From assembly GCF_023008545.1 (NCBI RefSeq), contig NZ_CP095398.1:124001-188000 (forward strand): 64,000 nt of DNA, read 5' to 3'. The position numbers were made by a program, and so were the translations under genes. Within the stretch, counting starts at the first letter, position 1; each line of letters begins with the position of its first letter. Under the pieces are notes generated by a model. That model did no database searches, had not been told where the DNA came from, and saw only the letters and a list, made by a program, of their open reading frames with translations. The DNA comes from Natribaculum luteum (GTDB lineage Archaea; Halobacteriota; Halobacteria; Halobacteriales; Natrialbaceae). Positions 37,360 through 60,140 of this stretch are shown piece after piece.

Positions 37360-38901
37360 ATGGACTATCTCAGAGCGTTCGATCGAACAGTGCACGTTCA
37401 CGGGTCAGACACAGCGATAGTCACCATGGATGGTGACACGTATACATACACCGAGTTCGACAATCGAAGTACACAACTCGCGAACGCACTCGACGAACGC
37501 GTTGGAAACAGTCCGTGTGCCGTCCTTGCTTGCAACGGCCTCCAAGCAGCCGAGTCGATGATTGCAAGCCACAAACGGGGGTCACCGACGGTCCAACTGC
37601 CATTTCGCGACGAACCTGCAGAACTAGTCCAGATGGCGGAGACGGCCGGTGCCACGGCGCTCGTCTTCGACGATGCGAACGCCGAAACGGCTCGTCGTCT
37701 GTTCGAGTTAGGCGATTTCGATGCAGGAATTCACGCTGGGAGGAGGGATCTCGGCGTGGACTGGGCTGAATCCTACGAATCCGTACTTGCGAAGGCACCG
37801 CGGGACCTCCCCGAACACCTCCCGGCCGACGGGAAGACGAACGTCTTCTACACAAGCGGAACCACGACCTTACCCAAAGCAGTGAGGTTCGACGGCGAGC
37901 AGATGTGGATCGGGGCGTACCAGGCCGTCATGGAACACGGCATCGATCAAACGGACGTCGCAGTCGTAATAACGCCCTGGTACCACATGGTCACGTCCGC
38001 CTCGTGGCTCTACCCACACTGGGCCGCCGGGGCGACGACGGTGTTGCAGTCACAGTACGAGCCCGACGATACGCTCTCCCTCCTCGAGCGACACGATGCG
38101 ACAGGGCTGCTCGCAGTGCCGGCACAGCTAGACGAACTCTGTAAATCACAAGCCGACGCGAACTACGACGTCGACTCGCTCTCGTACGTCCGGACTGGTG
38201 GGGCAATCGTTCCGGAGACGCTCATCGACCGCGTGAGAAATCAGTTCACGGAAGCGGTGTACAACACCTACGGAATGACCGAGGCGGGTCCGAATCTGAC
38301 ATTCGCACACCCATCAGTGCAAGATGACCACCCCGGAACGATCGGCAAGAAGTCATTTTCTTGGGAGTTACGCGTCGTCGAACAGGTCGGATTGGACGAA
38401 CGTCCTGACCCCCAGGCGACAGTCGAACCGGGTGAACGAGGCGAAATTATCGCTCGCGGTCCCGGTCTCCCCGACGGCTACGTCGACAACCCGAAAGCGG
38501 AGGCGCGAAACTTCTTCGACGGTTGGCTCCGAACTCGAGATGTCGCGAAGGTCGACACAGACGGCTTTCTCTACATTGTCGATCGGGTTGATAACATGTT
38601 CACCAGTGGTGGTGAGAACATCTATCCAACCGAGGTCGAGAACGCTCTCGAATCACACGAGGATGTCAGCGAGGCACTCGTGGTCGGCCTCGACGACGAT
38701 CACTGGGGAAACAAGGTGGCTGCCGTCGTCGTCGTTGATGGACAGGCTGGCCCTAAAAAGTTGGACGATTTCTGCAGGGAACACCCTTCTCTCGCGGATT
38801 TCAAGCGACCTCGTGAGTACGCAACGCGCACCGAACCCCTCCCACGGACGGAGACCGGAACGATAGAGCGGGAACGTGTTGTCGAGGAACACTTCGGTTG
38901 A
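37360..38901 (+). CDS. AMP-dependent aryl/acyl-CoA ligase
   Basis: A 513-aa ANL superfamily ligase. The P-loop-like motif VFYTSGTTTLPKAV (about 163-176), the A5 motif YNTYGMTEAGPNL (about 301-313) and the A7/A8 region TRDVAKVDTDGFLYIVDRVD then SGGENIYPTEVEN (about 390-430) are intact; the C-terminal catalytic Lys region is FKRPREY...RTETGTIERE. It activates a carboxylic acid to an acyl-AMP and then CoA thioester. Between IclR and gentisate dioxygenase, an aromatic acid such as 4-hydroxybenzoate or salicylate is a likely substrate. Confidence 0.88.
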   Translation: MDYLRAFDRTVHVHGSDTAIVTMDGDTYTYTEFDNRSTQLANALDERVGNSPCAVLACNGLQAAESMIASHKRGSPTVQLPFRDEPAELVQMAETAGATALVFDDANAETARRLFELGDFDAGIHAGRRDLGVDWAESYESVLAKAPRDLPEHLPADGKTNVFYTSGTTTLPKAVRFDGEQMWIGAYQAVMEHGIDQTDVAVVITPWYHMVTSASWLYPHWAAGATTVLQSQYEPDDTLSLLERHDATGLLAVPAQLDELCKSQADANYDVDSLSYVRTGGAIVPETLIDRVRNQFTEAVYNTYGMTEAGPNLTFAHPSVQDDHPGTIGKKSFSWELRVVEQVGLDERPDPQATVEPGERGEIIARGPGLPDGYVDNPKAEARNFFDGWLRTRDVAKVDTDGFLYIVDRVDNMFTSGGENIYPTEVENALESHEDVSEALVVGLDDDHWGNKVAAVVVVDGQAGPKKLDDFCREHPSLADFKRPREYATRTEPLPRTETGTIERERVVEEHFG

Positions 38902-39516: not shown

Positions 39517-40596
39517 ATGGCACAGCAAGAGCCAGAGGACCTCCTAGAGCTGAGTGCAGATACGCGGAGTATCCTCGAGGACAACGACCTCCGGCCACTC
39601 TGGGAAGTCGAAGAGGACCTAGGGAACCTCGTCGGCGACATCGACCCGGACATCTGGAAGTGGGAGGACATTCAGAACGCGATCGATAGCATCGAGGATG
39701 ACGTTCCGATAGCCGATCTCCCCCCTGGATTCCAGCGCCGCGTTGCGGTTCCGGTCAATACTGGCTACCGAAACGCGGTCTCGAATACTATCTATCTCGG
39801 CATTCAGACAGTCTCACCCGGTGAGACTGCGCCGTCACACCGACACGGGGCGAACGCTCTTCGATTCACCATCGACGGAAACGAGGACATGAAGACGGTC
39901 GTTGCAGGCGAGGAGTTCCCCATGCTAGACAACGATCTCATCACGACGCCACAGTGGGAGTGGCACGATCACGTCAACGACTCCAGCGAAACAGCGGCGT
40001 GGCTCGACGTGCTCGACCTGCCACTCGTGCTGGACTCGTTGAACGCCCGAAACACCTTCGAGAACCACGAACTCGAACGCCAACCTGTCACGAAGTCCCG
40101 GGGCTACTGGGAGTCACAGTACGGTCGGGCCCGCCCCTTCGAGGACAAGAAGGAAGACGATATTCCGGGACCGTTCCAGGGTAATCGTGAAGCGACACCC
40201 CCGTACCGTTTCCAGTGGTCGGACACGCAGGAAGCACTTCGACAGCGAGCCGAGAACGACGAGCCGGACCCCCACGACGGGTACAGCCTTTCCTACGTCA
40301 ACCCGGCGACGGGCGAGCCACCGCTATTCCCGACGATGTCGTTCCGCGCACAGTTGCTGCAGGACGCGACAGACCCGCACTTCCACAACGCCACCGAGGC
40401 GTACTTCGTCATCGAGGGTGACGGTGTGACTCACGTCGGTGACGAGGCGCTGGAGTGGAGTAAGCGAGATATCTTCCTCGTGCCGCCAGACGAGACTCAC
40501 CACCACGAACCCGACGACGAGGCGATCCTTCTCGGAATCACCGACCGTCCGGTGTTCGAAGCGTTCAACTTCTACGCCGAGGCCAAACCGTCGTAA
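39517..40596 (+). CDS. gdoA: Gentisate 1,2-dioxygenase
   Basis: A 359-aa bicupin. The N-terminal cupin has the iron-binding motif PSHRHGANALRF (His108, His110) and a downstream His in ITTPQWEWHDHVND (about 150). The C-terminal cupin has DPHFHNATEAYFVIEGDG (about 288). The size is right for the family. It opens the gentisate ring between the carboxyl and hydroxyl carbons to give maleylpyruvate. A gentisate dioxygenase is known from Haloferax sp. D1227. The FAH enzyme at 12810 would complete the pathway. It is monocistronic with its own promoter. Confidence 0.93.
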   Translation: MAQQEPEDLLELSADTRSILEDNDLRPLWEVEEDLGNLVGDIDPDIWKWEDIQNAIDSIEDDVPIADLPPGFQRRVAVPVNTGYRNAVSNTIYLGIQTVSPGETAPSHRHGANALRFTIDGNEDMKTVVAGEEFPMLDNDLITTPQWEWHDHVNDSSETAAWLDVLDLPLVLDSLNARNTFENHELERQPVTKSRGYWESQYGRARPFEDKKEDDIPGPFQGNREATPPYRFQWSDTQEALRQRAENDEPDPHDGYSLSYVNPATGEPPLFPTMSFRAQLLQDATDPHFHNATEAYFVIEGDGVTHVGDEALEWSKRDIFLVPPDETHHHEPDDEAILLGITDRPVFEAFNFYAEAKPS

Positions 40597-43035: not shown

Positions 43036-44979
43036 TTAGATTTCGGTCACACGTTCGTACTCATCGGGAAGGGCAGCAGCGTCCTCGGGGAGCAGCGCGA
43101 CGAGCAAGTAACCGGTGTACTCGTTGAGGTAGTCGATGAGCGTGGCAATCCGGTCTGCATCGATCGCTTCCAGCGAGTCCAGCAGCATGAACGGGACCTT
43201 CTCGTACACTTCGTGAGCGAGGTAGCCAGCGAGCGCGAACACCAGCCCCGTCACCTCCCGTTCGCTCTCGGAGAGGTGGTCGACCGTGTCCTCGTACGCC
43301 GCCCCCGACTCCGCCGTCCGGATGACGTGCAGTTCGAAGATGCTCTTGGTGACCTTACGCCGGCCTTCACGTACGTCGCGCTCGACGCGTTCGATCCAGA
43401 TGCGCTCGATGTTCGCGTAGTCGAGCATCTCGAGGACGGTGTCCATGTGCTCGTTGAACTCCTCGACGGCGTTCGCCTCGATTCGATCGATCGCCGTCCG
43501 ACGGTCCTCGATTTCGGCTTTGACCTCCTCGAGTTGCGCTTCGATGTCGTCCTGTTCGTCGATCTGACTCTCGATGTCGGCGATCTCTCCTTCGACGCGC
43601 TCGAGGTCGTTTTCGAGCCGTCCGAGTTCGTACTCGAGCTGGTTTGCCTCCTTGTGCAGATCCAGCACGGCGCTGTAGTTCTCGTCTTCTCGCTCTTCGA
43701 CTGCCGCTTCGATCGTCTCGATTTCGTCCGTTAGCTCCTCGCGGCGCGTCTGGAGACGGTCGATCGTGTCCTCACCGCGGTCGATTTCGGTCTCGATGTC
43801 AGACAGTCGGCGTTCGAGGCGGTCGCGCTCTCGCTGGGATTGCTCGAGTTCGCGCTTTCGATCACTCACCTCCGAAATCTCGTCGTCGATGTCGTTTACG
43901 TCCCCGAGCTTCGTCTGGCTGAGCTGGCGCAACTGGTCGAGCGTCGACTCGATCTGTGCGGTTTCGACTTCGCTCCCGCACGTCCAGCACGTGACGGTCT
44001 CGTCTGGCAGCAACTGGTCGGTGACGTCTCCCGACGAATCCTCGGTGAGCGCCTCGAACGCGTCCGAGTCTGCCTCTTCGAGCATCTCCTCGTTGAAGCC
44101 GATGACGCTCTGGAGTTCGTTCACTTCGGTCTCGAGTGCCCGCTTCCGGTTACGGAGCCGCTCGAGTTCGGAGTCGATCTCCTCGAGTTCGCCGAGCGGC
44201 GTCTCTGGAAGCTCGTCCAGTTCGTTCTCGAGTTCTCGCTGCTCGCTCGTGAGTGCCTCGAGGCTCTCGCGTTCGGTCTCGAGATCGAACCGGATGTCGT
44301 CGAGATCGGACCGTTTCGAACGGAGGTCGGCGAGTTTGTCTTCGAGTTCCGATTTCTCTTCACGCGTTTCTTCGACGTCCGCATCTGCTGCCTCGAGTTC
44401 CTCCTCTTTGGCCTCGAGTTCGGCTTTCTTCTCGGCGATGTCGTCTTTCAGTTGCGTCTGTTGCGCCTCTAATTGGGGAAGTTTACCTTTCTTGTCGTCG
44501 ATCTCCTCGAGTTTGCGCTGGAGGGACTGGCGCTCCTGAACGAGTTGGTCGATTTCGTTCTGGATCGCCTCAGTGTCGACCGGTCGCATGATGAGCTCAC
44601 GCAGATCGTCGTTGGCCGCGACTGCCCGGCGTGCCTCGTTCGACTCGAGGAGAAACGCAAAGAGGTCTGCCAGGGTTGGGTCCTCCAGATAGGGATCACC
44701 ATCGGTGACGACGCCGCCGGCACGCCGGCTCAACCGTCGTGTGTACGTCTCGTCGCCGAGGGTGAGTTCGACGGACGCCTCGTCGGCGTCGCCTTTGAGA
44801 GAGACGTTTTCGCTGCCGAGTGCCGCCATTACTGCCTGCAAAAACGACGTCCGGTTTGTCGCGTTCCGGCCGACGAGGATCGTGATTCCCGGCGAGAACT
44901 CGACGGTCGTTTCCTGAATTCCGCCGATATTCTCGGCGTGAATCGTCCCGTCTGGCTGACTGGACTGTTGCAGTTCCAT
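43036..44979 (-). CDS. Archaea-specific SMC-related ATPase
   Basis: A 647-aa Rad50/SMC-like protein. The N-terminal P-loop reads LVGRNATNRTSFLQAV (about 36-51), with Arg where Walker A normally has Lys. Two long coiled coils (about 140-310 and 350-500) flank a CWTC zinc-hook-like motif (about 330). The C-terminal half has the signature-like DHLSESEREVTGLVFALA and Walker B FMLLDSLEAIDADRI. It follows rdfA by 117 bp on the same strand; the same partnership is known in Haloferax volcanii, where RdfA and an SMC-like neighbour affect cell shape. Its biochemical role is not established. Confidence 0.85.
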   Translation of the reverse strand: MELQQSSQPDGTIHAENIGGIQETTVEFSPGITILVGRNATNRTSFLQAVMAALGSENVSLKGDADEASVELTLGDETYTRRLSRRAGGVVTDGDPYLEDPTLADLFAFLLESNEARRAVAANDDLRELIMRPVDTEAIQNEIDQLVQERQSLQRKLEEIDDKKGKLPQLEAQQTQLKDDIAEKKAELEAKEEELEAADADVEETREEKSELEDKLADLRSKRSDLDDIRFDLETERESLEALTSEQRELENELDELPETPLGELEEIDSELERLRNRKRALETEVNELQSVIGFNEEMLEEADSDAFEALTEDSSGDVTDQLLPDETVTCWTCGSEVETAQIESTLDQLRQLSQTKLGDVNDIDDEISEVSDRKRELEQSQRERDRLERRLSDIETEIDRGEDTIDRLQTRREELTDEIETIEAAVEEREDENYSAVLDLHKEANQLEYELGRLENDLERVEGEIADIESQIDEQDDIEAQLEEVKAEIEDRRTAIDRIEANAVEEFNEHMDTVLEMLDYANIERIWIERVERDVREGRRKVTKSIFELHVIRTAESGAAYEDTVDHLSESEREVTGLVFALAGYLAHEVYEKVPFMLLDSLEAIDADRIATLIDYLNEYTGYLLVALLPEDAAALPDEYERVTEI

Positions 44980-45096
44980 GTCCGTTCGTTAGACTCCGTT
45001 GGTTATAACGCTTTATATTGTATGACGGTCTGAGTATCGCCTACTCTGAATCGACCCCGTTTCGAGCTATCGAACGTCCCTACACCTGTGATCCAT

Positions 45097-45729
45097 CTAC
45101 TCGTTATCGAGTTCCGGGCAGTCACAGCCGCCCCGTTCCAAAAGCTCCTCGATCTCGTACTGTTGACCGCAGTCCTCACAAAGGACGTTAATATCAACGA
45201 AAAGTCTAAATTCTCCGAGTATAAGATCGTCACTGTTCTCGAGCTGCTCGAGTTTACTCTCCGTGATCGTCGCCAGTCGACTCCGAAACCGCCGAACGTT
45301 TTCGGCTTCGATAACAGTCCGATCACGATTGTCTGTGGCGTACTCTGCATCACGGTACTCCTTGAGATACGTCCGGATAGCCTGATACGTGACGAAATCG
45401 CTCGTGAGTTTTTCGACGTCGACGCCCTCGCGTTCCAGTCGGCGCTGTGCTCGGGTTCGATCTGCGCTGTTCGTGTCTTCACTTGTTAACAACTCATATA
45501 CATTTTCAACTTCCCCCGTCAGCGGCTGCATGCCGGCTGCGGCCATCGCTTCTGCGAGCAATTGCTGATTGAAGTAATCCGCCAGCGACCGAAGACTCAT
45601 CCGGTCGTCGCCCGACGTCGTCCATAGTCGCTCCATCTCAGCGCCGATGCCCTCGAGTTCGTACTCGTCGATGAGTCGCACAACCTTGCTTCGTCTCCCG
45701 GGCGAATTCCCCGTATTTGAGTCGTCCAT
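45097..45729 (-). CDS. rdfA: Rod-determining factor RdfA homologue
   Basis: A 210-aa protein starting MDDSNTGNSPGRRSKVVRL. The RdfA core is clear: SKVVRLIDEYELEGIGAEME, SLADYFNQQLLAEAM, the RTRAQRRLEREGVDVEKL stretch and DFVTYQAIRTYLKEYRDAEY. The C terminus ends in a CEDCG...CDC zinc ribbon. In Haloferax volcanii RdfA is needed for the rod-to-disk shape balance. The pair with the SMC-like gene is often present in several copies, and here lies inside a catabolic island. Confidence 0.88.
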   Translation of the reverse strand: MDDSNTGNSPGRRSKVVRLIDEYELEGIGAEMERLWTTSGDDRMSLRSLADYFNQQLLAEAMAAAGMQPLTGEVENVYELLTSEDTNSADRTRAQRRLEREGVDVEKLTSDFVTYQAIRTYLKEYRDAEYATDNRDRTVIEAENVRRFRSRLATITESKLEQLENSDDLILGEFRLFVDINVLCEDCGQQYEIEELLERGGCDCPELDNE

Positions 45730-46263
45730 ACTTAACAACTGGTGGCACCAACACTAATTCTTGTCTGTCTACGATAGATAGGCGCGGCTGAGAGAATTAC
45801 GTGTGACTGCAGTTATTAATAAACATCAGGGAATAGCGGTCACACATTGATTATTTCGAACATCATCTATGTTTCAGTGTTTACTGAACTCGGCTATTAG
45901 GACCGGAATTCGAAAATTCCAAAGACGACATTTGAGGGCATGATTGTCCAGTCAGTAACAGTTGTTCTTTGTTATCGAATGTGGCTGTAGAAATATTACA
46001 GTCAAGCTATTACTGAATGTAGTAGGACGTCACAGTTATGAATTCTTAAAGGAAATAGCACTCATTACAGATGTATGCGTGTAATTCACGAGGGCGGACC
46101 CAGTTATCAGGACGTTAGAGGTGCTGTCCTGCTCGCTTCGACCGCGAGCAGAATTCATCGTATGTGTTACACCACTCCCGGAACTGGCTGAAGTGTCGGC
46201 TAGAAGTACACGAGACAGTTCGCGGTTTTCACGTGTATCGTTCGACAGCATCGAATCGTCGTC
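45730..46263. other. Intergenic region, no gene recognised
   Basis: About 530 AT-rich bases between rdfA and the IclR gene. Nothing beyond presumed promoter of rdfA was recognised. Confidence 0.45.
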
Positions 46264-47034
46264 TCAGAGAGTAGTGAGATTGATCTCTAATTCGTTCGTC
46301 GCTCCCAACAGGAGATCGACAAGCTCACCGCTAATCTCCTCGCGGCGAAGTCGGTTTGCGGGTCCGGAGATACTCAATGCTCCTCTGACTTCGTCGTTTT
46401 CACCGACGATGGGCGCACCGATGGCGTACAGACCCGAGAGGGACTCCCCGTCGTTTATTGCGTACCCTCGATCTCGTGAGGTTTCAAGTTCTTGGAATAA
46501 TTCATCTTCTCGTGTAGTCGTATTCTGCGTCTGTTCGGGCAGTCCGTGGCGCTCGATAATCTCTTCGACGCGACTACGCGGGAGGTTTGCGAGGATCGCC
46601 TTACCAGCAGAGATCGTATGCAAGTGCACCCCCTCACCAATCCGGACGGGAGGGTTGACCGGATGTTCACCCTCAGCGCCAGTCAGATAGTACCCGAGTC
46701 CGTTTTCCTCGACGATGCACCAGACTCGTTCCCCGGTTTCGTGAGCCAGTTGCTTCACTTTCTTCGGGGCAATCGAGTAGAGATCGTACGAGGTCTGCAC
46801 GTGCTTACCGTGATTCAGAAACTCTAATCCCAGTCGATACTTTCTGCCCTCTTTGACTACGTATCCACGCCGCTGCAACGCTGTGAGGTGCCCGTGTGCG
46901 GTACTCTTGGCCATTCCGACACCCTCTGCGATCTCGGTTACACCTACGTCCTCGTTCTCGCGAATGAATTCGACGATGTCGAACAGTTTTTCGTCCGATT
47001 TGATCGTCCTTCCTTGACCGTCTTTCTGTGACAT
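46264..47034 (-). CDS. IclR-family transcriptional regulator
   Basis: A 256-aa regulator with an N-terminal winged helix (GVTEIAEGVGMAKSTAHGHL, about 31-50) and the IclR effector domain (HTISAGKAILANLPRSRVEE; LSGLYAIGAPIVGENDEVRG). It lies directly downstream of sdhB on the same strand and is the nearest regulator for the SDH/lyase/transporter cluster. The effector is probably a small organic acid, as in many IclR proteins. Confidence 0.92.
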   Translation of the reverse strand: MSQKDGQGRTIKSDEKLFDIVEFIRENEDVGVTEIAEGVGMAKSTAHGHLTALQRRGYVVKEGRKYRLGLEFLNHGKHVQTSYDLYSIAPKKVKQLAHETGERVWCIVEENGLGYYLTGAEGEHPVNPPVRIGEGVHLHTISAGKAILANLPRSRVEEIIERHGLPEQTQNTTTREDELFQELETSRDRGYAINDGESLSGLYAIGAPIVGENDEVRGALSISGPANRLRREEISGELVDLLLGATNELEINLTTL

Positions 47035-47149: not shown

Positions 47150-47878
47150 TCAGTCAGAGGGAAACAATCGCTGTTTGACTCCGTGCTTTACTGCCTCTCG
47201 CTTCAGGAGTTGAATTCCTTCTGAAATCGGGAGATCTTTCGGACACGACTGCGTACATTCGCCCTGAACGTGACAGCTCCAGACGCCGTCAGCGTCCATG
47301 AGGCGTTCGAGCCGTTCTTCGGTTCTCGACTCTCGAGAATCTTTCACTAGCGTCAGCGCCTTGTTGATCGCCGCAGGACCGAGATAGTTCTCGTCTGCGA
47401 TGCTACAACTCGAGTAACAGGCACCACAGCCGACGCAATCCGTTCGGGGATCGATCACTTGCCGTTCGTCAGAATCAGGTTTTACGACCGCAGGGTCGGT
47501 CTCCTCGTCCAGTTCGTCTGATTCGAACGAGGGTTCGATCTCGGCGAAGCTATCGAAGAAGGGTTCCATATCGACAACCAGATCTTTTATCACTGGAAGA
47601 TTGTACATCGGGCGAACGGTGATCTCACCTTCCAACTCGGAGACTGGCGTCTGGCAAGCGAGTCGTGCCTGTCCGTTGATCTCCATAGAACAACTGCCGC
47701 AGACGCCCTGTCTGCAAGAGAACCGCATCGAGAGGTTCTCTTTGATCGTCTCTTGGATATGGAAGAGTCCGTCGAGCACCGACGTCGATTCGCTCGTCGG
47801 GACGTCGTACGATTCGAAGGTTGGTTCGGAGTCGGTTTCTGGGTTGTACCGGTGAACGGTAAACGTCGTCTTAGTCAT
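47150..47878 (-). CDS. sdhB: Succinate dehydrogenase/fumarate reductase iron-sulfur subunit
   Basis: A 242-aa SdhB/FrdB-type protein. It has the [2Fe-2S] motif CRQGVCGSCSMEINGQARLA (about 55-75), then the cluster motifs CVGCGACYSSC (about 146-156) and CHVQGECTQSCP (about 201-212). It transfers electrons from the flavoprotein to the membrane anchors. It is 75 bp after sdhA on the minus strand; the anchors are encoded 6.5 kb away on the opposite strand, unlike the usual compact sdhCDBA cluster of haloarchaea. Confidence 0.9.
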   Translation of the reverse strand: MTKTTFTVHRYNPETDSEPTFESYDVPTSESTSVLDGLFHIQETIKENLSMRFSCRQGVCGSCSMEINGQARLACQTPVSELEGEITVRPMYNLPVIKDLVVDMEPFFDSFAEIEPSFESDELDEETDPAVVKPDSDERQVIDPRTDCVGCGACYSSCSIADENYLGPAAINKALTLVKDSRESRTEERLERLMDADGVWSCHVQGECTQSCPKDLPISEGIQLLKREAVKHGVKQRLFPSD

Positions 47879-47952: not shown

Positions 47953-49704
47953 TCAGCCCTCGTCTGCGTGCTCACGCTCTGGAGGAGCGGCAGCAACTCC
48001 CTCTTCTTCGTCGGGTGTCAACCGTGAGAATTCTACTGCTTCGTCCCAAATGTGCATTCCGTCTTCGGCTCGTTGTACGTACACGTTCGCTAACCAGCGG
48101 TCGTCGTTTCGCGTCGGGTAGTCTTCACGGTAGTGAGCGCCGCGACTTTCGGTTCGATAGAGGGCGCTTCGAGCGACCATTTCGGCCGCGAGCGAGAGGT
48201 TTTCTACGTCCATGTACTCGTTCCACTCCAGGTTGTACTGACAACTACCGGAGACAGAAACCTCGTCGAGGCGCTCCCGCACTCGCCGTATCTCGTCGAT
48301 GCCCTCGATCAGTTTCTCTTCGGTCCGTACGACGCCAACGTGTTCCCACATCGTTTCCTCCAGCAATTCACGCAGTTCGTAGATGTCGGCTCCGTCAGAT
48401 CGATCCAATGGCGCGGTCACGCGCGTAATTATCGCTTCGACTTGCTCGGGATCGTACGGGGCGGGCTCTCGGTCGCGGACCTCACTCGCGATCGCTTGGC
48501 CCGCTTGCTTGCCTAGTACCGTCGAATCGACCACGCCGTTTCCACCGAGTCGATTTGCTCCGTGAGCCCCGCCAGCGTCTTCACCAGCCACGTACAGTCC
48601 AGGAAGTTCAGTTCGGCAGTTGCCGTCGATCGTCACACCACCCATGTGATAATGAGACGTCGGCGAGACCTCGACGGGTTGCTCCGAGAGGTCCTGTCCG
48701 ACGTTGCGTGTTCGGTCGGTCATCCCGGGGAACGTTTCTTCGACGAAGTCGGTACCGAGATGGGTCGCATCGAGCAGTACGCCGTCGCGGTCGGTCCCGC
48801 GCCCGTCCATGATCTCCTGGTAACTCGCTCGAGAGACGATATCTCGAGTGGCGCGTTCCATCTCCTCGGGTGCGTACCGGCTCATGAACCGCTCGTCCTC
48901 CGTGTTGTACAGGTGTGCGCCGGCACCACGGATTCCCTCCTCGATGACGCCGCCGGTGAGTTTCGTATCTCCGGCCAAGAGCCCGGTCGGGTGGAACTGC
49001 ATCATCTCCATGTCCTGGAGTCGCACTCCCCGACGGAACGCCATCGCCTGGCCGTCCGCAGACTTCTCGAGTGCGGGTGTCGAAATCCGGTACATCGTCG
49101 CACCTGCACCGGTCGCGAGGACGACCGCATTCGCGGTAATCACCTCGAACTCGCCCGAACGCATGTCGAGAACCACACAGCCGACCACCTCGTCGTCGTG
49201 CGTGAGGAGATCGACCGCTCTCGTCTCCTCGAGGAACGTCACGTCGCGGGTCAACAGTTCGTCCCGGATCTTCGTCATAATTTCGATGCCAGTCAGGTCG
49301 CCCTTGTGAACCGTTCGATCGAACGATTGACCCGCGAATGGCTTCTGGTGTACGTATCCGTCCTCGTCGCGGTCGAAGAACACGCCCAGATCGTTCTCCA
49401 GTTTTCGGATCACCGTTGGAGCGTTCTCGATCAGCGTCCACGCGAGTTCCTGATCGTTGATCCACTTTCCGCCTTCTACCGTGTCGCGGTAGTGTGCCTC
49501 GAGTGAGTCGTCGGGATGAAGGACGGCGTTGTACCCACCCTGCACCATCCGCGTGCAGCCGCTCTTTCCCGCCAACTTCTTCACGACGATCGTGATATCG
49601 AGGTCGTCAGGACTCTCTTCGTCGGCATACATCGCGGCGAATAGCCCTGCACCGCCGGCGCCGACGACTAGCACATCCGTCTCTCGTACTCTTCGAGCTG
49701 GCAT
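47953..49704 (-). CDS. sdhA: Succinate dehydrogenase/fumarate reductase-like flavoprotein
   Basis: A 583-aa flavoprotein of the SdhA/FrdA/NadB family. The FAD motif VVGAGGAGLFAAMYADEE is at about 13-30. Active-site motifs are kept: MQFHPTGLL, the GVIEEGIRGAGAHLYN segment, SPTSHYHMGGV, and AHGANRLGGNGV. At the position of the His that binds FAD covalently in SdhA (SHTxxxQGG), this protein has Cys50 (SGCTRMVQGGYNA), so FAD is probably non-covalent or differently bound. This suggests a specialised enzyme and not the housekeeping SDH. It is divergent from the lyase gene at 49901. Confidence 0.88.
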   Translation of the reverse strand: MPARRVRETDVLVVGAGGAGLFAAMYADEESPDDLDITIVVKKLAGKSGCTRMVQGGYNAVLHPDDSLEAHYRDTVEGGKWINDQELAWTLIENAPTVIRKLENDLGVFFDRDEDGYVHQKPFAGQSFDRTVHKGDLTGIEIMTKIRDELLTRDVTFLEETRAVDLLTHDDEVVGCVVLDMRSGEFEVITANAVVLATGAGATMYRISTPALEKSADGQAMAFRRGVRLQDMEMMQFHPTGLLAGDTKLTGGVIEEGIRGAGAHLYNTEDERFMSRYAPEEMERATRDIVSRASYQEIMDGRGTDRDGVLLDATHLGTDFVEETFPGMTDRTRNVGQDLSEQPVEVSPTSHYHMGGVTIDGNCRTELPGLYVAGEDAGGAHGANRLGGNGVVDSTVLGKQAGQAIASEVRDREPAPYDPEQVEAIITRVTAPLDRSDGADIYELRELLEETMWEHVGVVRTEEKLIEGIDEIRRVRERLDEVSVSGSCQYNLEWNEYMDVENLSLAAEMVARSALYRTESRGAHYREDYPTRNDDRWLANVYVQRAEDGMHIWDEAVEFSRLTPDEEEGVAAAPPEREHADEG

Positions 49705-49877: not shown

Positions 49878-49900
49878 AAACGAAATAGAAATTTCTAGTG

Positions 49901-51403
49901 ATGCCCGCAGACGAGAATATCTCTCGAGAGCGACTAGGGGCAGCGCCCGGTGACGTGTACACCGAGACGATCCAAGAGCCGACGTACGAGTTCAAACGTG
50001 AGCATTACTTCTATCACCTCATCGAAACGAACAAGGCCTGGACGGTGATGCTAGTCGAGACGGGACTGATCGACGAATCGGACGGTACCCAACTCCTCGA
50101 CGCGATAGCTGATCTCGAGGCGACGGGGCCCGAGGTGCTCGGCGAGTACAATCCGCAACTGGAGTACTTCTATTCGCACATGGAACACCAGCTCAACGAG
50201 CGAATCGGGGAAGACGTAGCTGGAAATATTAATATCGGGCGCACGCGGCCCGAGCCGCTCGCCAGGATGGTCACCCGCGAACAGCTGCTAGACATCCTCG
50301 AGCAGGCGCTGTCGCTTCGGGGAACGCTCCTCGATCTCGCCGAACGGGAACTCGAGACGGTCATGCCACAGTGGACGCACTACCAGCACGCACAGGTTTC
50401 GACCGTCGGCCATTACCTATTGGCGATCGTCGATTCGCTCGAGCGCGATACACGACGATTGCTCAACGCTTACGAGACGGTAAACGAGTGTACCCTCGGG
50501 TGTGGCGCGTTGGCTGGCGCGTCCTACGACCTCGATCGCCAGCTCGTCGCGGATTTACTCGGTTTCGACGGATTCAAAGAGAACACGATCGACTGTGTCG
50601 GCGGTGGTGATCACCACATGGAGCCTGCAGCCGCGATGGCGAACATGATGGTGACGCTAAGTCGATTGTGCCAGGACCTGTACACCTGGCACACCTGGGA
50701 GTTCGACTTCGTCGAGATCGGTGATGAGTTCTCGGGCTCCAGCAGTATGATGCCTCAAAAGAAGAACCCCTATCCGTTCGAATACGTCCGTGCCAGGGCT
50801 GCTCATGCGACGGGTTACATGTGCTCGGTCCACGAAACCTTGCACAACACGAACTTCCAGGACATCAAAGACGTCGAGGAAGACGCGGTCCACCCGCTGT
50901 TCGAGGCGTTCGAGGAGGTCGATCGAGCGCTACGGCTGCTCGATGGAACGGTCGCAAGTGCGGAGTTCAAGGCGGACACCATGCTCGAACGTGCCGCAGA
51001 AGGGTTCGCCTCGTGCAGCGAACTCGCAGCGAAGATCGACCGACAGACCGATCTAACCTACCGAACTGCACACCGGATCGTCGGCGATCTGGTCCAGCGT
51101 GCGCTGAGTCGAGATCTAGACGCGACAGCGGTCGACGCCGAACTCGTCAACGAGTCGGCACGCGAGATTACCGGAGAGTCGCTCGACATCGACGACGATT
51201 TCGTCCAGTCTGCGCTCGATCCCAAAGCATTCGTCGAAGCCCACGACGTACCTGGCGGCCCGGCACCGCGAGAAGTACGGCGCATGATCCAGGATCGCCG
51301 AGCAACCCTCGACGAGGATAGGGTCGACGTCGCGAATCGTCACGAGAAGATCGAGGACGCGAGTCGGGAACTCGCCGATCGCGTCGAATCGATCTACGCC
51401 TGA
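49901..51403 (+). CDS. Argininosuccinate lyase-family enzyme of unknown substrate
   Basis: A 500-aa fumarase/aspartase superfamily protein. It has the GSSSMMPQKKNPYPFEY signature loop with the catalytic Ser, the THYQHAQVSTVGHYLLA helix (THxQxAQ as in ArgH) and ECTLGCGALAGASYDLDR. The ArgH substrate motif HTGRSRND is changed to NIGRTRPEP, so argininosuccinate is unlikely to be its substrate. ArgH-family lyases release fumarate; related ones cleave aminopolycarboxylates such as EDDS. It is divergent from sdhA, whose enzyme would use or make fumarate. The start could also be the GTG one codon earlier. Confidence 0.8.
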   Translation: MPADENISRERLGAAPGDVYTETIQEPTYEFKREHYFYHLIETNKAWTVMLVETGLIDESDGTQLLDAIADLEATGPEVLGEYNPQLEYFYSHMEHQLNERIGEDVAGNINIGRTRPEPLARMVTREQLLDILEQALSLRGTLLDLAERELETVMPQWTHYQHAQVSTVGHYLLAIVDSLERDTRRLLNAYETVNECTLGCGALAGASYDLDRQLVADLLGFDGFKENTIDCVGGGDHHMEPAAAMANMMVTLSRLCQDLYTWHTWEFDFVEIGDEFSGSSSMMPQKKNPYPFEYVRARAAHATGYMCSVHETLHNTNFQDIKDVEEDAVHPLFEAFEEVDRALRLLDGTVASAEFKADTMLERAAEGFASCSELAAKIDRQTDLTYRTAHRIVGDLVQRALSRDLDATAVDAELVNESAREITGESLDIDDDFVQSALDPKAFVEAHDVPGGPAPREVRRMIQDRRATLDEDRVDVANRHEKIEDASRELADRVESIYA

Positions 51404-51512: not shown

Positions 51513-52295
51513 TCACCAACCGATGCCGTTCAGAAAGAGTCGAATCCCGATCAGTACGAGTAGCAGTTTGATGAACAGCGCAAATAAGCGTTCGTCGAGA
51601 TACGGGCGGAATACCGTCCCGAGATACACGCCGACGAAGACGGGCACCGTAAAGAGGGCACCCAGGACGAACTCTGTCGTTTGCAGTAGATTAGCGTTCG
51701 CGAGAAAGACCACCCGGACGACGTGTGCGACCAGAAATAGAGCAGACGTCCCCGTGACGAACACAGTTCGATTTTCGTCGATCGTATTGAGATACGAGTG
51801 AATGACGAGCGGCGGTCCCGGAGCGCCCACCGCACCACCGAGTAATCCGCTTAGTGTGCCGGCGAAGACGCTCACACTGGGACGCTCAGCGTACTCGTAT
51901 ATTTTCTCTTCGACGTGCTGAAACACGAGAAACAGGCCCACGTAGGCGGCAATGAAGAGATAGAGTAACTGCGCTGAGAGGGCCTCGAGGAGCCACACGC
52001 CGACGAACAATCCAACCGTGAGCGTGATCAAAAACCCGATCTGCGTCCGGAGAAACTCGATGGGGAGACCGTCATTAACTAAGACAACTACGTTGGACAC
52101 GAGAAACGGAATCGAGAGCGCTACGAGAGCGAGTTGCGGCGGAAACACCTGCACGATTCCGGCGATAGTGATGAGGCCGACTGCGAACCCGACCGTTCCT
52201 TTGACGAACCCGCCAAGTAACAGGACAGCGATCGCAATTAGTACACCGACTGCGGTGACTTCGACGCCAGCGAAGGCGAGTGCACCCAACTCCAT
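51513..52295 (-). CDS. TauE/SafE-family membrane permease
   Basis: A 260-aa protein with about 8 membrane segments in two halves, each beginning with the G-x3-G-x2-G type motif of the family: LLGGFVKGTVGFAVGLITIA (about 25-44) and FAGTLSGLLGGAVGAPGPPL (about 144-163). TauE/SafE proteins export sulfite, sulfoacetate or related anions. It sits convergently between the lyase and the UxaA-type genes, which is notable because UxaA-type sulfo-lyases release sulfite. Confidence 0.85.
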   Translation of the reverse strand: MELGALAFAGVEVTAVGVLIAIAVLLLGGFVKGTVGFAVGLITIAGIVQVFPPQLALVALSIPFLVSNVVVLVNDGLPIEFLRTQIGFLITLTVGLFVGVWLLEALSAQLLYLFIAAYVGLFLVFQHVEEKIYEYAERPSVSVFAGTLSGLLGGAVGAPGPPLVIHSYLNTIDENRTVFVTGTSALFLVAHVVRVVFLANANLLQTTEFVLGALFTVPVFVGVYLGTVFRPYLDERLFALFIKLLLVLIGIRLFLNGIGW

Positions 52296-52621
52296 TGGTC
52301 TTTTGATAGATTACTCTGATTATTCCATGTGTTTTTCGGTGTCTGTTATCTATTCTGACACAAAGGCGCGGATTCCGGAAAGGGGGCTGGTTTTTGTGGG
52401 CACTCGTTTCGAGGGGGCTCTAGACAACACCCAGACTCGCGGGGCAGCCAAAAACGACTCGTGGCCGGACGATCCGCGTCGAGTGGCCGATACGCTGAAT
52501 CAGCGCCGACGATTCCCTCGATACTCGCCAGGTTGATTGCCCCGGGCACAAGATAAAATTCAAGAATCATGATGTGATTGGCGTGGTAAGTTATATCATC
52601 CACGAGTCGTATCTACTTTCT

Positions 52622-52933
52622 ATGGGTGACACCCACATCGTCGCAGTCGAACCAGACGATAATGTTGCGACGGCTATCCGTGAGATAACGAGCGGTGAGA
52701 CGGTGACCGTCGATGTCGGCGACTACGAAGTCACGGTCGAAGTCGCAGAGGACGTCCAATTTGGGCACAAGATCGCACTCGAGGAGATCCCCGAGGGCGA
52801 GACAGTGTACAAGTACGGGCTCAGCATCGGAACTGCCTCGGAAGACGTCGAGGCCGGCGAGTGGGTACACGTCCACAACGTCGAGAGCAACTACGGCCGT
52901 GGCGACCTGGCAGACGAAAGCGCTACCGCGTAG
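52622..52933 (+). CDS. UxaA-family small subunit (SAF domain)
   Basis: The 103-aa product starts MGDTHIVAVEPDDNVATAIR. It is a lone SAF domain matching the N-terminal domain of altronate/galactarate dehydratases: FGHKIALEEIPEGETVYKYG (about 48-67) and WVHVHNVESNYGRGD. In split members (for example SuyA of (R)-sulfolactate sulfo-lyase) this is a separate small subunit. A TATA-like GTTATATC is about 28 nt upstream. The large subunit starts 21 bp downstream. Confidence 0.85.
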   Translation: MGDTHIVAVEPDDNVATAIREITSGETVTVDVGDYEVTVEVAEDVQFGHKIALEEIPEGETVYKYGLSIGTASEDVEAGEWVHVHNVESNYGRGDLADESATA

Positions 52934-52954: not shown

Positions 52955-54118
52955 ATGACAGACTTCCTGGGATACGAACGACCCGACGGCAGTATCGGCA
53001 TTCGAAACTTCGTCCCCATCATCGCGACTGCACCGTACGCCAACGACACGGTCGAGCGCGCTGCGGGAATCGTCGACGACGCGATTCCGATCACACATCC
53101 CCTCGGTCGGTGTCAGACCAAACCCGACGTGTTCCAGACGTACCGAACGCTACTGGGCTACGGTACGCATCCGAACACGTACGGAGCAGTCGTGGTCGCT
53201 CACGCTGGCGAGATCGTCGACGGTGACGAGCTGGCCGAGGATATCGCAGAGACCGGTCGCCCCAGCGCGAGCATCAACATTCACGACGAGAACGGTGTGA
53301 TGAACGGACTGAAAGCGACCGTCGAGGCTACACAGGAGATGGTACAGGACGCCAGCGCTCAGCGACGCCAACCCCACGACGTTTCGAACCTGACGTTCGG
53401 TATCAACTGCGCGACGTCGGACACCACGAGCGGGCTCTGTCAGCACAAGGCGACTGCAGGGGCAGCGTGGCGACTAATCGACGAGGGGGGCCGTGCTGTC
53501 TTCGCGGAAACGCCGGAGTTTTTCGGTGGTGAACAGGGGCTAGCGGATCGCGCCGTCAACGACGAAGTCGCACAGAAAATCCTCGATTACGTCGACCGCT
53601 GGGAACAGCGTTTGCAGGAGACGGGCTACGACGTGCGGGGTGCCCAGCCGACACCGGACAACATGGACGGCGGTCTCACGACAATCGAGGAAAAAGCGCT
53701 CGGAGCACTCGTCAAATCCGGCGACGGGCCGATCCAGGATCTGGTCGACTACGGTGAGAAGATCCCCGACGACAGTGGCATGTACATCATGGACACGCCA
53801 GGCCACGGCGCCGAATCGGTGACGGGGATCGGCGCAGGCGGGGCACACTTTATGATCATCTCGACGGGCCAGGGACACACGCTTTCGAACGCCATCATGC
53901 CGACGATCAAGATCACAGGTAATCCTGGCAGCGCCGAACGCGTGCCCGAGGAGACCGACGTCGACGTCAGCGAGGCGCTGGTCGGCGACCAGACGATCGA
54001 GTGGGCGACCGACCAGCTCTGGAACGAGATCATAGATGTGGTGAATGGTAAACAGACGTTGAGTGAAGTGCTCGGTGAAAGCCAGTTCGCGATCCACCGT
54101 ATCGGTCCCTCAACCTGA
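52955..54118 (+). CDS. UxaA-family large subunit (dehydratase or sulfo-lyase)
   Basis: A 387-aa protein covering the C-terminal catalytic domain of UxaA/GarD-type enzymes: GYERPDGSIGIRNFVPII at the N terminus, THPLGRCQTK, FGINCATSDTTSGL (about 149-162) and MDTPGHGAESVTGIGAGG. Members remove water from altronate or galactarate, or sulfite from sulfolactate (SuyB). Its size suits a SuyB-like split enzyme (reported SuyB about 42 kDa), and a TauE/SafE exporter is adjacent, but the substrate is not proven. Length is normal and the gene intact. Confidence 0.83.
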   Translation: MTDFLGYERPDGSIGIRNFVPIIATAPYANDTVERAAGIVDDAIPITHPLGRCQTKPDVFQTYRTLLGYGTHPNTYGAVVVAHAGEIVDGDELAEDIAETGRPSASINIHDENGVMNGLKATVEATQEMVQDASAQRRQPHDVSNLTFGINCATSDTTSGLCQHKATAGAAWRLIDEGGRAVFAETPEFFGGEQGLADRAVNDEVAQKILDYVDRWEQRLQETGYDVRGAQPTPDNMDGGLTTIEEKALGALVKSGDGPIQDLVDYGEKIPDDSGMYIMDTPGHGAESVTGIGAGGAHFMIISTGQGHTLSNAIMPTIKITGNPGSAERVPEETDVDVSEALVGDQTIEWATDQLWNEIIDVVNGKQTLSEVLGESQFAIHRIGPST

Positions 54119-54395: not shown

Positions 54396-54791
54396 ATGGC
54401 ATACAATGACACGGCACCAGAGGTCGCTTCGATGAAAGAAGATCGTGTGATCTACCGGCGGAAGCTGCTCGAGTTCGGTAGTTGGACGGATTTCTCGACT
54501 GGACACGCGGCGTTCGTTCTGCATCGCTTGACTGGGTGGCTACTACTCGGTTGGATTCTGATCCACCTCGTCGTGCCTGCAGTCCGAACATCGCCGGATG
54601 CAGTTCACATTCCAGGGTCGAATGCGGTGATCGTCTCCCTACTTGCGATTCTCGTCTTTCACGGGTTCAACGGAATCCGTCTAATACTGGCTGAACTGGG
54701 GGGAACGACAGCCGACCACAACCGGGTCGCGTTCTTTCTCTCCATCATACTATCTGCAATCCTGATTAGTTTGCTGGGGGTGGTACTATGA
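54396..54791 (+). CDS. sdhC: Succinate dehydrogenase cytochrome b-type subunit
   Basis: A 131-aa protein with three membrane segments. It contains VLHRLTGWLLLGWILIHL (about 41-58) and FHGFNGIRLILAEL (about 89-102), the SdhC-type quinone/heme motifs with conserved His and Arg. Together with the next gene it anchors the flavoprotein and Fe-S subunits encoded at 47150-49704. It overlaps sdhD by 4 bp (ATGA). Confidence 0.87.
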   Translation: MAYNDTAPEVASMKEDRVIYRRKLLEFGSWTDFSTGHAAFVLHRLTGWLLLGWILIHLVVPAVRTSPDAVHIPGSNAVIVSLLAILVFHGFNGIRLILAELGGTTADHNRVAFFLSIILSAILISLLGVVL

Positions 54792-55123
54792 GTACAGAGT
54801 ACACCCCACCGACGCGAGATCCTGCGAGGGTCGGATATCTGTCGTGGCTTCTCCACCGACTGAGCGCGCTCGCGCTCGTTCCACTGCTAGCGATTCACGT
54901 CGGCGTCCAGGTGTACCCGCAGTACGGATTCGACGCGATATACCAGTATAATATCTATCAGCCCCTTCTCAGCCTCACACTCGGAATCGTCCTGTTGCAT
55001 GCGTTTCTCGGAGTGCGAGCGACGACACTCGAGACGCGTCTGTCGTCCCGCTTGAAGACGGTCATAATCTGGCTCGTCGGCCTTTTCGTCCTCTCACTGT
55101 TCGTTTATCGACTCGTTGGCTAG
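54788..55123 (+). CDS. sdhD: Succinate dehydrogenase membrane anchor subunit
   Basis: A 111-aa protein with three membrane segments (about 20-40, 58-75 and 90-108) starting MSTEYTPPTRDPARVGYLSW. HRLSALALVPLLAIHVGVQV and LLHAFLGVRATTLE are SdhD-like, with candidate heme-ligand His residues. Translation is coupled to sdhC. Confidence 0.85.
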   Translation: MSTEYTPPTRDPARVGYLSWLLHRLSALALVPLLAIHVGVQVYPQYGFDAIYQYNIYQPLLSLTLGIVLLHAFLGVRATTLETRLSSRLKTVIIWLVGLFVLSLFVYRLVG

Positions 55124-55877: not shown

Positions 55878-56951
55878 CTACATCATCCCTTCCTCTTCGT
55901 AAGCCTGCTGAGCACCCTGGTGAAGCTCGTATGGGAGCGAGTCGAACATGGCCTCGCTCGCCTCGAAGGGCGCGAGGATATCCGTCGACTGACGGAACTG
56001 ATCCGCATTCGTGATAACACCCTGCACGACCTTCCGAACTGCCTCGTCCGGTGCGTCGACCTGACCAGCGATGAGACCGCTATCCTGCATCGTGTTGAGC
56101 GTATCGCTCTGTTGCGGGAGCGTCTCAGCTTCCAGATCGGCCTTTTGCAGGCCGTATTCCTCGCTGAAGTAGTCGCGGTTCTCCTCGGTCCAATCGAGAT
56201 AGTTGACGTCTCTAGTGGCCGTAATCGTCGACAGCCACCCGACCGACCTCCCGCTCACTGCGAGGATCAGGTCGAGATCCTCGTCGACGAACATCTGCGC
56301 AGCGTCGTCCCACGTCGTCCGGCGGTACTCGCCACCATACTCCTCAATCTGGTCCTGCCCGTACCCTAGCTCTTCGAGGGCCGTATCCCAGACGAACCCG
56401 CCAAATGTGCCCTCGGGTTGGTTCATCACCGTGAGGGCGGCCTCGTCTTCGGCGGCCCCAGCGAGGGTATCGTACTGGAAATCTGGTTGGGCTACGACGT
56501 AGTAGAACAATTCGGTCTGGTCTGCCATCACTGCTCGCAGGTTCGCTGGCGGCTGCTCCCAGTCTTTGTCGTTGTATGGATCTTGTCCGTTGGCCGCCAG
56601 GGTGGCGGCGACGATCGTCGTGTGAGCGATGTCCAGTTCCTTGTTCTGGAGCCGGGTATTGTTTCCGACCCAACCACCCGGCAGGATGTTGTACCCGAGT
56701 TCAGGGAACTCCGCAGACGCAGTCGATAGCGCCGCGTTCATGATCGCATAGCCGGTCCCACCGGGCGTCCCGCCAGCGGTCGTTAATTGTCCTTGAGTGC
56801 CACCGCCGCCACCACCATCGCTACTGTTGCCATTGCCACCATCGCCACCCATACAGCCAGCGAAGGAGGCGAGGCCAGTTACGCCAATCGTCTTGAGAAC
56901 TCTACGTCGCCGAGCACCATTGTGTGAGTCGTTACCCGTCATTGTTTTCAC
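55878..56951 (-). CDS. TAXI-family TRAP transporter substrate-binding lipoprotein
   Basis: A 357-aa periplasmic-type receptor. It has a twin-arginine signal (ARRRRVLKTIG) running into the lipobox SFAGC (Cys about 33), then a Gly/Ser-rich linker. The TAXI core follows: TTAGGTPGGTGYAIMNAALS, LDIAHTTIVAATLAANGQ and the C-terminal helices. It captures a small organic acid and hands it to the fused permease at 58010. It overlaps the upstream 105-aa gene by 4 bp and abuts the 79-aa gene. Confidence 0.9.
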   Translation of the reverse strand: MKTMTGNDSHNGARRRRVLKTIGVTGLASFAGCMGGDGGNGNSSDGGGGGGTQGQLTTAGGTPGGTGYAIMNAALSTASAEFPELGYNILPGGWVGNNTRLQNKELDIAHTTIVAATLAANGQDPYNDKDWEQPPANLRAVMADQTELFYYVVAQPDFQYDTLAGAAEDEAALTVMNQPEGTFGGFVWDTALEELGYGQDQIEEYGGEYRRTTWDDAAQMFVDEDLDLILAVSGRSVGWLSTITATRDVNYLDWTEENRDYFSEEYGLQKADLEAETLPQQSDTLNTMQDSGLIAGQVDAPDEAVRKVVQGVITNADQFRQSTDILAPFEASEAMFDSLPYELHQGAQQAYEEEGMM

Positions 56952-57985: not shown

Positions 57986-58009
57986 TAGTGAGTAATGATA
58001 TCTACCATC

Positions 58010-59923
58010 ATGGTAACGGTTGTACGGGAGTCACGTGTACGATTGGTGGGCGCGTACGCGATATCGATGATCGCAATTACTACGTCGTTGTTTCACTTGT
58101 ACACGGGCGCGTTTGGGATCTTTGGTGGACTCGTCCAGCGCTCGGTACACGTGTATCTCCTGACTGCACTGACGTTCGCGATCGTACCGTTTATCGATGG
58201 GAAGAAAATCCGATACCGTTTCGTCGACGTCGGGTTGATCGTACTGGCACTCGTTTCGATGAGTTACGTACTAGTAAATTATTCACGACTCCTCAACGCG
58301 ACACCATACGTCACCCCGCCAGAGTATTACGACTGGATCTTCGCAGTCATTTCGATCGTACTCGTGGTGGAAGCGACGAGGCGAATTGTTGGTCGGTTGC
58401 TCGCCGCCGTCGTCGTCCTCTTCCTCATGGGTGGATTTTTCTCGAACACGCTACCACAGCCGATGACGACACCCACGGCGCCCCCCTCGAACTGGGTCGA
58501 CGGGATGTTCGTCACCACACAGGGACTGTGGGGAATCCCAACGCGCGTTTCCGCGACCTTCATATTCCTGTTCGTGATTCTTGCGGCATTTCTCGAGAGT
58601 ACGGGAGCGGGTCGGTTCCTGATCGATCTAGCAAATTCGCTCGTCGGTCATCTACAGGGCGGCGCGGCGAAGGTCGCGGTTGTCGCTAGTTCGATCTTTG
58701 GGAGCCTCTCGGGGAGCGCAGCTGCAAACGTATACGGGACCGGAATATTCACGATTCCGATGATGAAAAACAGCGGTCTTGACCGTATCTTCTCAGGGTC
58801 AACGGAAGTAACTGCCTCCTGCGGCGGGCAACTTATGCCGCCGATCATGGGTGCAGGCGCGTTTATCATGGCGCAGTTCCTCGGTGTGGAGTACACCGTT
58901 ATCGCTCTGGCAGCGATCATTCCATCATTTCTCTACTATATCTCTGTGTACTTTTCCGTGCATGCCGAATCGATCGTTCAGAACGTTGACCCGCTTCCCC
59001 GCGAGGAGCAGAAAAATGCGCTGGCTGTATTGCGCGACGCCCCCGGACAGGCCCTTACGTTGCTGCTAACGCTCTCCGTGTTGATTTACATGCTCGTTCG
59101 TGGATACACGATTTACCGCTCAGTATTCCTCGCAGCCAGTATCCTAATGATCGTCAGTTCAGTTCAGGCTGACTCTCGAGTCGGAGTCAAACACCTAGTC
59201 GTCGCTCTGGACAAAGGAGCGCGAAACGCCACGCAGATCGCCATGGCGTGTGCCGCCGCGTCGATTGTCCTCGGTTCGCTGAACATCTCTGGGCTGGGCG
59301 TCGTCTTTGGTCAGTTTATCGTATCGCTTGCAGGAGGTAGCGTCGCACTCTTGCTAATCGCCGTCGCAGCGTTCTCGATCATCCTCGGATTCGGAATGCC
59401 AACCACCGCAGCGTACATTCTTGCCGCGTCGCTGCTGGCGCCGGCGCTATCGGCAGTCGAACTCTCTGGTCTCCCAGGTCACTTCTTTATCTTCACGTTC
59501 GCCGTCTACTCCACACTGACGCCGCCAGTCGCACTTGCGGCGTTCGCAGCTGGCCAGGTCGCCGACGCGGACCCGATCCGGATCGCATTCAAATCGATCA
59601 AGATGGTGCTCCCGACGTTCATCATCCCGGTTCGCTACGTCTTGCATCCAGCCATTCTGATCCAGATGTCGTGGGAGTACGTATTGCTCGACCTAGGTAT
59701 CCTCTTGATCGCAGTGATCGCGATCCAGGCTGGTATCTGGGGATGGCCAGTCAAGGGACAGATTGCGCGATCGTTGGCGGTCGTCGGAGCGATCCTCTTG
59801 ATCCTGCCAGCGTCGTTGGTTCCGATAGAGTTCTTTACTCTCATCATTCTGGGGCTGGCTTTCGTCGCGCTGTCTGGAATTCTCCATCTGAACCGTCACC
59901 ACCAGGTGGGAAGACCCATTTAG
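58010..59923 (+). CDS. TRAP transporter permease, fused 4TM-12TM
   Basis: A 637-aa membrane protein with about 17 segments. The N-terminal part (about 1-130) corresponds to the small DctQ-like subunit and the remainder to the DctM-like large subunit, as is usual for TAXI-type systems. Typical stretches include SGSAAANVYGTGIFTIPMMK, GGQLMPPIMGAGAFIMAQFL and GMPTTAAYILAASLLAPAL. It would import the TAXI receptor's ligand, driven by Na+ or H+. It is divergent from UspA and the receptor operon. Confidence 0.9.
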   Translation: MVTVVRESRVRLVGAYAISMIAITTSLFHLYTGAFGIFGGLVQRSVHVYLLTALTFAIVPFIDGKKIRYRFVDVGLIVLALVSMSYVLVNYSRLLNATPYVTPPEYYDWIFAVISIVLVVEATRRIVGRLLAAVVVLFLMGGFFSNTLPQPMTTPTAPPSNWVDGMFVTTQGLWGIPTRVSATFIFLFVILAAFLESTGAGRFLIDLANSLVGHLQGGAAKVAVVASSIFGSLSGSAAANVYGTGIFTIPMMKNSGLDRIFSGSTEVTASCGGQLMPPIMGAGAFIMAQFLGVEYTVIALAAIIPSFLYYISVYFSVHAESIVQNVDPLPREEQKNALAVLRDAPGQALTLLLTLSVLIYMLVRGYTIYRSVFLAASILMIVSSVQADSRVGVKHLVVALDKGARNATQIAMACAAASIVLGSLNISGLGVVFGQFIVSLAGGSVALLLIAVAAFSIILGFGMPTTAAYILAASLLAPALSAVELSGLPGHFFIFTFAVYSTLTPPVALAAFAAGQVADADPIRIAFKSIKMVLPTFIIPVRYVLHPAILIQMSWEYVLLDLGILLIAVIAIQAGIWGWPVKGQIARSLAVVGAILLILPASLVPIEFFTLIILGLAFVALSGILHLNRHHQVGRPI

Positions 59924-60140
59924 GATTCGGTTCCGCTTGGGTACCCGACTTTGGCGATTATGAGCGTTAACCGCGCAAGTATCACCGTTACAGAGACACT
60001 TATAGACGTCGAGCGAAGCGGGTCATTTTCGTCGGAGAACCCATCGTAGCGAACGTTCGTGACCTGCTAAAACCTCTCCGGCAAGAATGTCTACAAGCAG
60101 TACGTTTTTTATCTGGTGCGACGGACCACCCCACGTTACC

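Follow-up and report, generated by a model that had tools for sequence, protein, structure and literature searches.

What reaction does a complex II-type flavoprotein serve when a cysteine stands at the position of the FAD-linking histidine? This question is raised by an SdhA-like protein encoded in the 64,000-nucleotide stretch of Natribaculum luteum DNA analysed here (the window), which an earlier note had set apart from the respiratory succinate dehydrogenase (SDH) and proposed to reduce fumarate or act on a substituted succinate. We found that the open reading frame is real, encoding 583 aa from an ATG start in a single unbroken frame, and that it lies on the minus strand, which corrects its orientation; the plus strand over the same interval is interrupted by stops. 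The protein aligned over its full length with SdhA/FrdA and carried FAD_binding_2 and Succ_DH_flav_C domains, and an iron-sulfur partner and membrane anchors are encoded nearby, indicating complex II architecture. Phmmer placed its S-G-C50-T-R-M-V-Q-G-G opposite R-S-H45-T-V-S-A-Q-G-G of E. coli SdhA (1nek_A) and set Cys50 opposite the FAD-linking His of M. smegmatis SDH as well, while MAFFT alignment with the housekeeping SdhA of the same genome put C and H in the identical column. No alternative His of the protein fitted as the FAD link in the pairwise or multiple alignments.

The replacement of the FAD-linking His by Cys was thus borne out for the window protein, and it extended to its relatives. 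Cys occupied this position in 91/91 family members, a count to be read knowing that 80 genome loci were chosen partly by the motif [CS]GCTRMVQ, which contains the Cys; it was equally present in 11/11 relatives from plain tblastn or protein searches, a selection in which the Cys motif played no part. The catalytic set H238, E256, R287, H351 and R385 was retained in all 91 members, Arg287 (R286 of E. coli SdhA) being invariant. The earlier claim that the catalytic residues are kept therefore stood for this set and failed for the region it had given as EExxRG, which is TExxRG in classical SdhA. Here the substrate-binding Thr (T254 of E. coli SdhA) is replaced by Glu255, with Glu again in 91/91 members, and the substrate-site motif reads EExxRGAG compared with TExxRGEG in classical complex II flavoproteins, the Glu of RGEG being mostly Ala across the family. 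Elsewhere, the residue at the Glu255 position was Thr in 18 TfrA sequences, Ser in the housekeeping SdhA and NadB encoded in the same genome, and Thr in a third SdhA. As a separate observation, the SdhA of Haloarcula GH36 has Ile where the others have Arg292.

In the tree, the SdhA-like family formed one clade with full support, with TfrA as its sister (SH-aLRT 95). Its members comprised four haloarchaeal sequences together with Bacillota, Actinomycetota, Acidobacteriota, Chloroflexota, Rokuibacteriota, Verrucomicrobiota and many Pseudomonadota; within the Halobacteria the family was rare, with a match in 2/292 genomes at the strict limit used. TfrA of methanogens was also the best NCBIfam match of the window protein (575.9 bits), and Cys was found in 18/18 methanogen-type TfrA examined (GKGGCTTMAEGGYN). 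Since the Cys is common to TfrA, these comparisons indicate that it is not the distinguishing mark of the family and is by itself an older trait of this part of the SdhA/TfrA family, and they point to the change from Thr, still held by TfrA, to Glu as the family's own mark. Plain TfrA identity was ruled out, because the score falls below the NCBIfam equivalog cut-off of 718, the window SdhB has 242 aa compared with 488 aa in the TfrB model, and sdhCD membrane anchors are encoded in the window. With SdhA/FrdA, the window protein shares the two domains, the catalytic residues, and an SdhB with two membrane anchors, whereas its family differs in Cys for His, Glu for Thr, mostly RGAG for RGEG, a separate clade and a sulfonate gene context.

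Table 1 Features of the gene cluster in the window
Feature	Coordinates	Strand	Remarks
IclR-family regulator, likely cluster regulator	46264..47034	-	adjoins sdhB in G029 and Haloarcula too
SdhB-like iron-sulfur subunit	47150..47878	-	adjoins sdhA; same pair in G029 and Haloarcula GH36
SdhA-like complex II-type flavoprotein, predicted 3-sulfopropionate dehydrogenase flavoprotein	47953..49704	-	Cys50 for FAD-linking His, Glu255 for substrate Thr
ArgH-like aspartase/fumarase-superfamily lyase, predicted sulfoacrylate hydratase	49898..51403	+	without the ArgH SRND motif
TSUP (TauE/SafE) transporter, predicted sulfite or sulfonate exporter	51513..52295	-	PF01925; position conserved in G029 and Haloarcula
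SuyA-like SAF-domain small subunit, UxaA-type lyase	52574..52933	+	
SuyB-like UxaA-type large subunit, predicted sulfolactate sulfo-lyase	52955..54118	+	
SdhC-like membrane anchor, cytochrome b-type	54396..54791	+	PF01127; conserved in G029
SdhD-like membrane anchor, overlapping sdhC	54788..55123	+	PF01127; conserved in G029
TAXI-type TRAP solute-binding protein, possible sulfonate uptake	55878..56951	-	also within 8 kb of the Haloarcula cluster
Fused TRAP permease (DctM), likely TAXI partner	57995..59923	+	PF06808

The gene context was conserved well beyond the window. IclR, sdhB and sdhA are followed by a divergent ArgH-like lyase gene, the TSUP gene on the opposite strand, the small and large UxaA subunits, sdhC and sdhD, and then the TAXI/TRAP genes (Table 1). 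All nine genes from IclR to sdhD were kept in a second haloarchaeal genus (genome G029) at 53-87% identity per protein, and the edge of that block encodes a D-hydroxyacid dehydrogenase and a sulfite-oxidase-type molybdoenzyme. A Haloarcula plasmid carried the block without sdhCD, none being annotated near the SDH-like genes of the Haloarcula GH36 cluster (L042:1-18159), together with an Ldh-family enzyme whose best NCBIfam match, below cut-off, was L-sulfolactate dehydrogenase. Bacterial relatives on plasmids combined sdhB-D-C-A with fumarase alpha/beta, with TauE and YeiH nearby; the Methylobacterium nodulans cluster included the sulfite dehydrogenase SoxC (607 bits, cut-off 420), and two bacterial relatives had neighbouring binding proteins of the SsuA type (aliphatic sulfonate) that scored under the cut-off of their family. 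In Rhodococcus jostii RHA1 (L048:6664-7665), a SuyA-like SAF stretch with an odd fused or disrupted frame was seen upstream of the SDH-like genes. Several other genes of the window lie close by. A threonine-synthase-type gene (60087-61328, +) stands beside the TRAP genes, and a link of it to cysteate was rejected because it scored 417 bits for threonine synthase (cut-off 303) and just 80 bits for cysteate synthase. On the other side, two plus-strand genes mark a possible adjoining aromatic degradation cluster, one for an AMP-binding CoA ligase (37360-38901) and one resembling gentisate 1,2-dioxygenase (39517-40596), and an SMC/Rad50-like coiled-coil protein (43036-45738, -) with a small partner gene upstream is encoded between these aromatic genes and the sulfonate cluster.

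A search of the 4.6-Mb genome found housekeeping sdhCDBA, with SHTGAAEGG in its flavoprotein, at C1:3593.5-3596.6 kb, and the window set is therefore a second complex II rather than the sole SDH of the organism, as the earlier note had supposed in denying it the respiratory role. A third SdhA-like protein of 621 aa, with AHTTWAAGG and its His kept, is encoded at C1:3585189-3586337, about 9 kb upstream of this housekeeping set. The first option of the earlier note, an alternative SDH or fumarate reductase working on succinate or fumarate under special conditions, agrees with the retention of most catalytic residues and of all four subunit types and with a sister clade, TfrA, that by its family name reduces fumarate. 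We nevertheless consider it quite unlikely, given the fixed Thr to Glu change at the substrate site, the repeated linkage to a second hydratase and to sulfite genes, and the housekeeping SDH already in the organism. Fumarate reductase was ruled out as the main explanation by Glu255 and by the conserved gene partners, which would make up a degradative sulfonate pathway and leave the earlier suggestion of fumarate reduction unsupported.

Like SuyAB, the UxaA pair of the window consists of separate SAF small and UxaA large subunits; it differs in lying on a haloarchaeal branch, with 34-36% identity to bacterial SuyB, about the same as to sugar-acid dehydratases. In a tree of 30 sequences, in which long branches were noted, the window large subunit and its haloarchaeal group joined bacterial SuyB (98/92), apart from the sampled sugar-acid UxaA proteins, which makes the window pair a SuyB-clade member on this tree and its large subunit a predicted sulfolactate sulfo-lyase. 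Haloarchaeal relatives 84-86% identical to it were encoded beside YeiH and a sulfolactate-dehydrogenase-like Ldh, and one of them beside an HpsN-like HisD, an HpsO-like SDR and TRAP genes, arranged as in a dihydroxypropanesulfonate cluster. A Bacillus cluster with SDH-like and fumarase genes likewise encoded a UxaA protein close to the haloarchaeal type. SuyB-like genes were present in 26 of the 80 loci (54 had none within the surrounding stretch analysed) and in 18 of the 44 full-length loci, the other 26 having none. The chance of a UxaA-type gene in a 17.7-kb stretch is about 1%, a rough estimate from about three per 4.5-Mb genome rather than a value computed on these genomes. Twenty-four of the 26 SuyB-like proteins shared 58-87% identity with the SuyB encoded in the HpsN-HpsO-SuyAB cluster of Cupriavidus pinatubonensis (described in PMC11382572), and the loci with these genes span Archaea, Bacillota, Actinomycetota, Chloroflexota and Pseudomonadota.

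At about 40% identity, relatives of the window UxaA protein lie in sugar-acid-type clusters, and some flavoprotein loci had no sulfur gene in reach. Both observations would suit a carbon-only substituted succinate, such as methylsuccinate or tricarballylate, as the compound oxidised, the UxaA pair then being a dehydratase of the sugar-acid type, a reading made highly doubtful by the recurrence of sulfite-related genes across phyla and by the grouping of the UxaA orthologues with SuyB. Two candidate pathways were noted at SuyAB loci of haloarchaea. A Haloarcula pelagica plasmid (L057:4367-13927) encodes a HisD-like protein (39% to HpsN), SDR, YeiH, SuyAB and TRAP proteins, a candidate for archaeal dihydroxypropanesulfonate degradation. 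On plasmids of Halomarina, Haloarcula and Halomicrococcus (L052-L056), SuyAB orthologues are found among GH31 or GH3 glycosidases and sugar ABC permeases, with an enolase-superfamily dehydratase, a DHDPS-type aldolase, an aldehyde dehydrogenase and a Gfo/Idh dehydrogenase, which together form a candidate haloarchaeal sulfosugar pathway of the sulfo-Entner-Doudoroff type.

The ArgH-like lyase of the window scored 323 bits against the NCBIfam argH model and passed its cut-off of 279.5, and another ArgH-type gene, 37% identical to it, is present in the same genome. Cluster-linked lyases share the fold family of ArgH and the EDDS lyase and keep the catalytic TH and SSxMPQKKN, with 6rx8 and 6g3d as the closest solved structures, deposited as argininosuccinate lyase and which we take to be EDDS lyase. 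In contrast to ArgH, all of them have TRPE in place of SRND, and in our sample the lyase always adjoins the SDH-like pair. Fumarase-like genes occurred in 61/80 loci, the ArgH-like lyase in 3/80 and both in 0/80, with the lyase replacing the class-I-fumarase-like subunits of bacteria in haloarchaea and two actinobacteria. Because it stands in for the fumarase pair, the lyase is most simply read as a hydratase of the acrylate that the SDH-like enzyme would form. Degradation of EDDS or of another N-substituted aspartate was dropped because bacteria have the fumarase pair in the place of the lyase.

With sulfolactate as the SuyAB substrate, a hydratase acting before it and an SDH relative before that, the order of steps leads back to 3-sulfopropionate. 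We consider it probable that the SdhA-like protein serves as flavoprotein in a quinone-linked relative of complex II that oxidises 3-sulfopropionate, the sulfonate analogue of succinate, within a cluster for sulfonate breakdown that comprises the lyase as hydratase, SuyAB, TSUP and IclR. The SdhA-like enzyme would convert 3-sulfopropionate to 3-sulfoacrylate, its electrons reaching the quinone pool by way of SdhB and SdhCD; the ArgH-like lyase, or the class I fumarase-like pair in most bacteria, would add water to give 3-sulfolactate; the SuyAB-like pair would split this into pyruvate and sulfite; and the TSUP carrier would export the sulfite, with the IclR protein controlling the cluster genes. 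The ComC-type sulfolactate dehydrogenase model had no match in the genome of the organism, and so the hydratase would have to yield the right isomer. Degradation of homotaurine by Roseovarius nubinhibens via 3-sulfopropionate, sulfoacrylate and sulfolactate is reported in a Konstanz thesis, as cited in PMC11489063, and the three reactions predicted here match that route, as summarised there, one to one. That summary names no genes. The same paper (2024), which describes how 3-sulfopropionate is formed, states that its degradation had not previously been reported, and our search of the open literature gave no later gene assignment for it. The SDH-like complex is thus most likely the missing first enzyme of 3-sulfopropionate breakdown, a prediction well supported by its gene context.

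Some observations count against the 3-sulfopropionate reading: the 54 loci lacking SuyB suggest that other routes or substrates may apply to some members, the reading does not account for Glu255 in the substrate pocket, and UxaA homology taken alone is weak evidence. The same enzyme types and sulfite genes would fit a sulfosuccinate dehydrogenase, by which 2-sulfosuccinate would pass through sulfofumarate to sulfomalate and the UxaA pair would free sulfite to leave oxaloacetate, and DctA (C4-dicarboxylate) and tripartite tricarboxylate carriers do lie near some clusters. We judge this route unlikely, because the UxaA pairs found in bacteria are closely orthologous to a sulfolactate lyase, dehydrogenases of the SlcC/ComC type are frequent neighbours (by best BLAST match, ComC-like genes in 26 and SlcC-like genes in 19 of the 80 loci), and the literature search gave no paper describing a pathway of this kind.

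The state of the flavin bears on the direction of the reaction. In the window protein, FAD may be non-covalent, as the earlier note took the Cys to mean, or bound through the Cys: TfrA, with the same Cys, is described with non-covalent FAD, and Cys can carry 8-alpha-S-cysteinyl-FAD, as in monoamine oxidase. A covalent His-FAD bond increases the potential, and homologues that bind FAD non-covalently are reported to be unable to oxidise succinate (PMC9557727). Non-covalent FAD would therefore mean a low potential and sits badly with an oxidative role. It would favour the reductive use of the enzyme, with sulfoacrylate formed from sulfolactate and reduced to 3-sulfopropionate as an electron sink; this we regard as very improbable, since the presence of SuyAB, SoxC and sulfite exporters in these clusters suggests that the carbon is used and sulfite set free. 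If the enzyme is oxidative, either its substrate pair permits this or the invariant Cys is thioether-linked to FAD. A bolder proposal, speculative and on balance unlikely, is that the Cys holds 8-alpha-S-cysteinyl-FAD, a new complex II linkage whose higher potential would suffice for oxidation of a sulfonate counterpart of succinate in the first genetically identified 3-sulfopropionate route.

The main inference of the earlier note, of an enzyme other than the housekeeping SDH and perhaps acting on a substituted succinate, is largely right; the substituted succinate comes near the best reading, 3-sulfopropionate being succinate with one carboxylate replaced by a sulfonate. 3-Sulfopropionate derives from sulfoquinovose, dihydroxypropanesulfonate and homotaurine, and a gene set found across Archaea and many bacterial phyla, with the diagnostic motif GCTRMVQGG plus EEGxRG, would give candidate enzymes for its breakdown. 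Many proteins now annotated as succinate dehydrogenase, fumarate reductase, fumarate hydratase or argininosuccinate lyase would then be reassigned, and the fixed Cys raises a clear question about how complex II links its flavin and tunes its redox potential.
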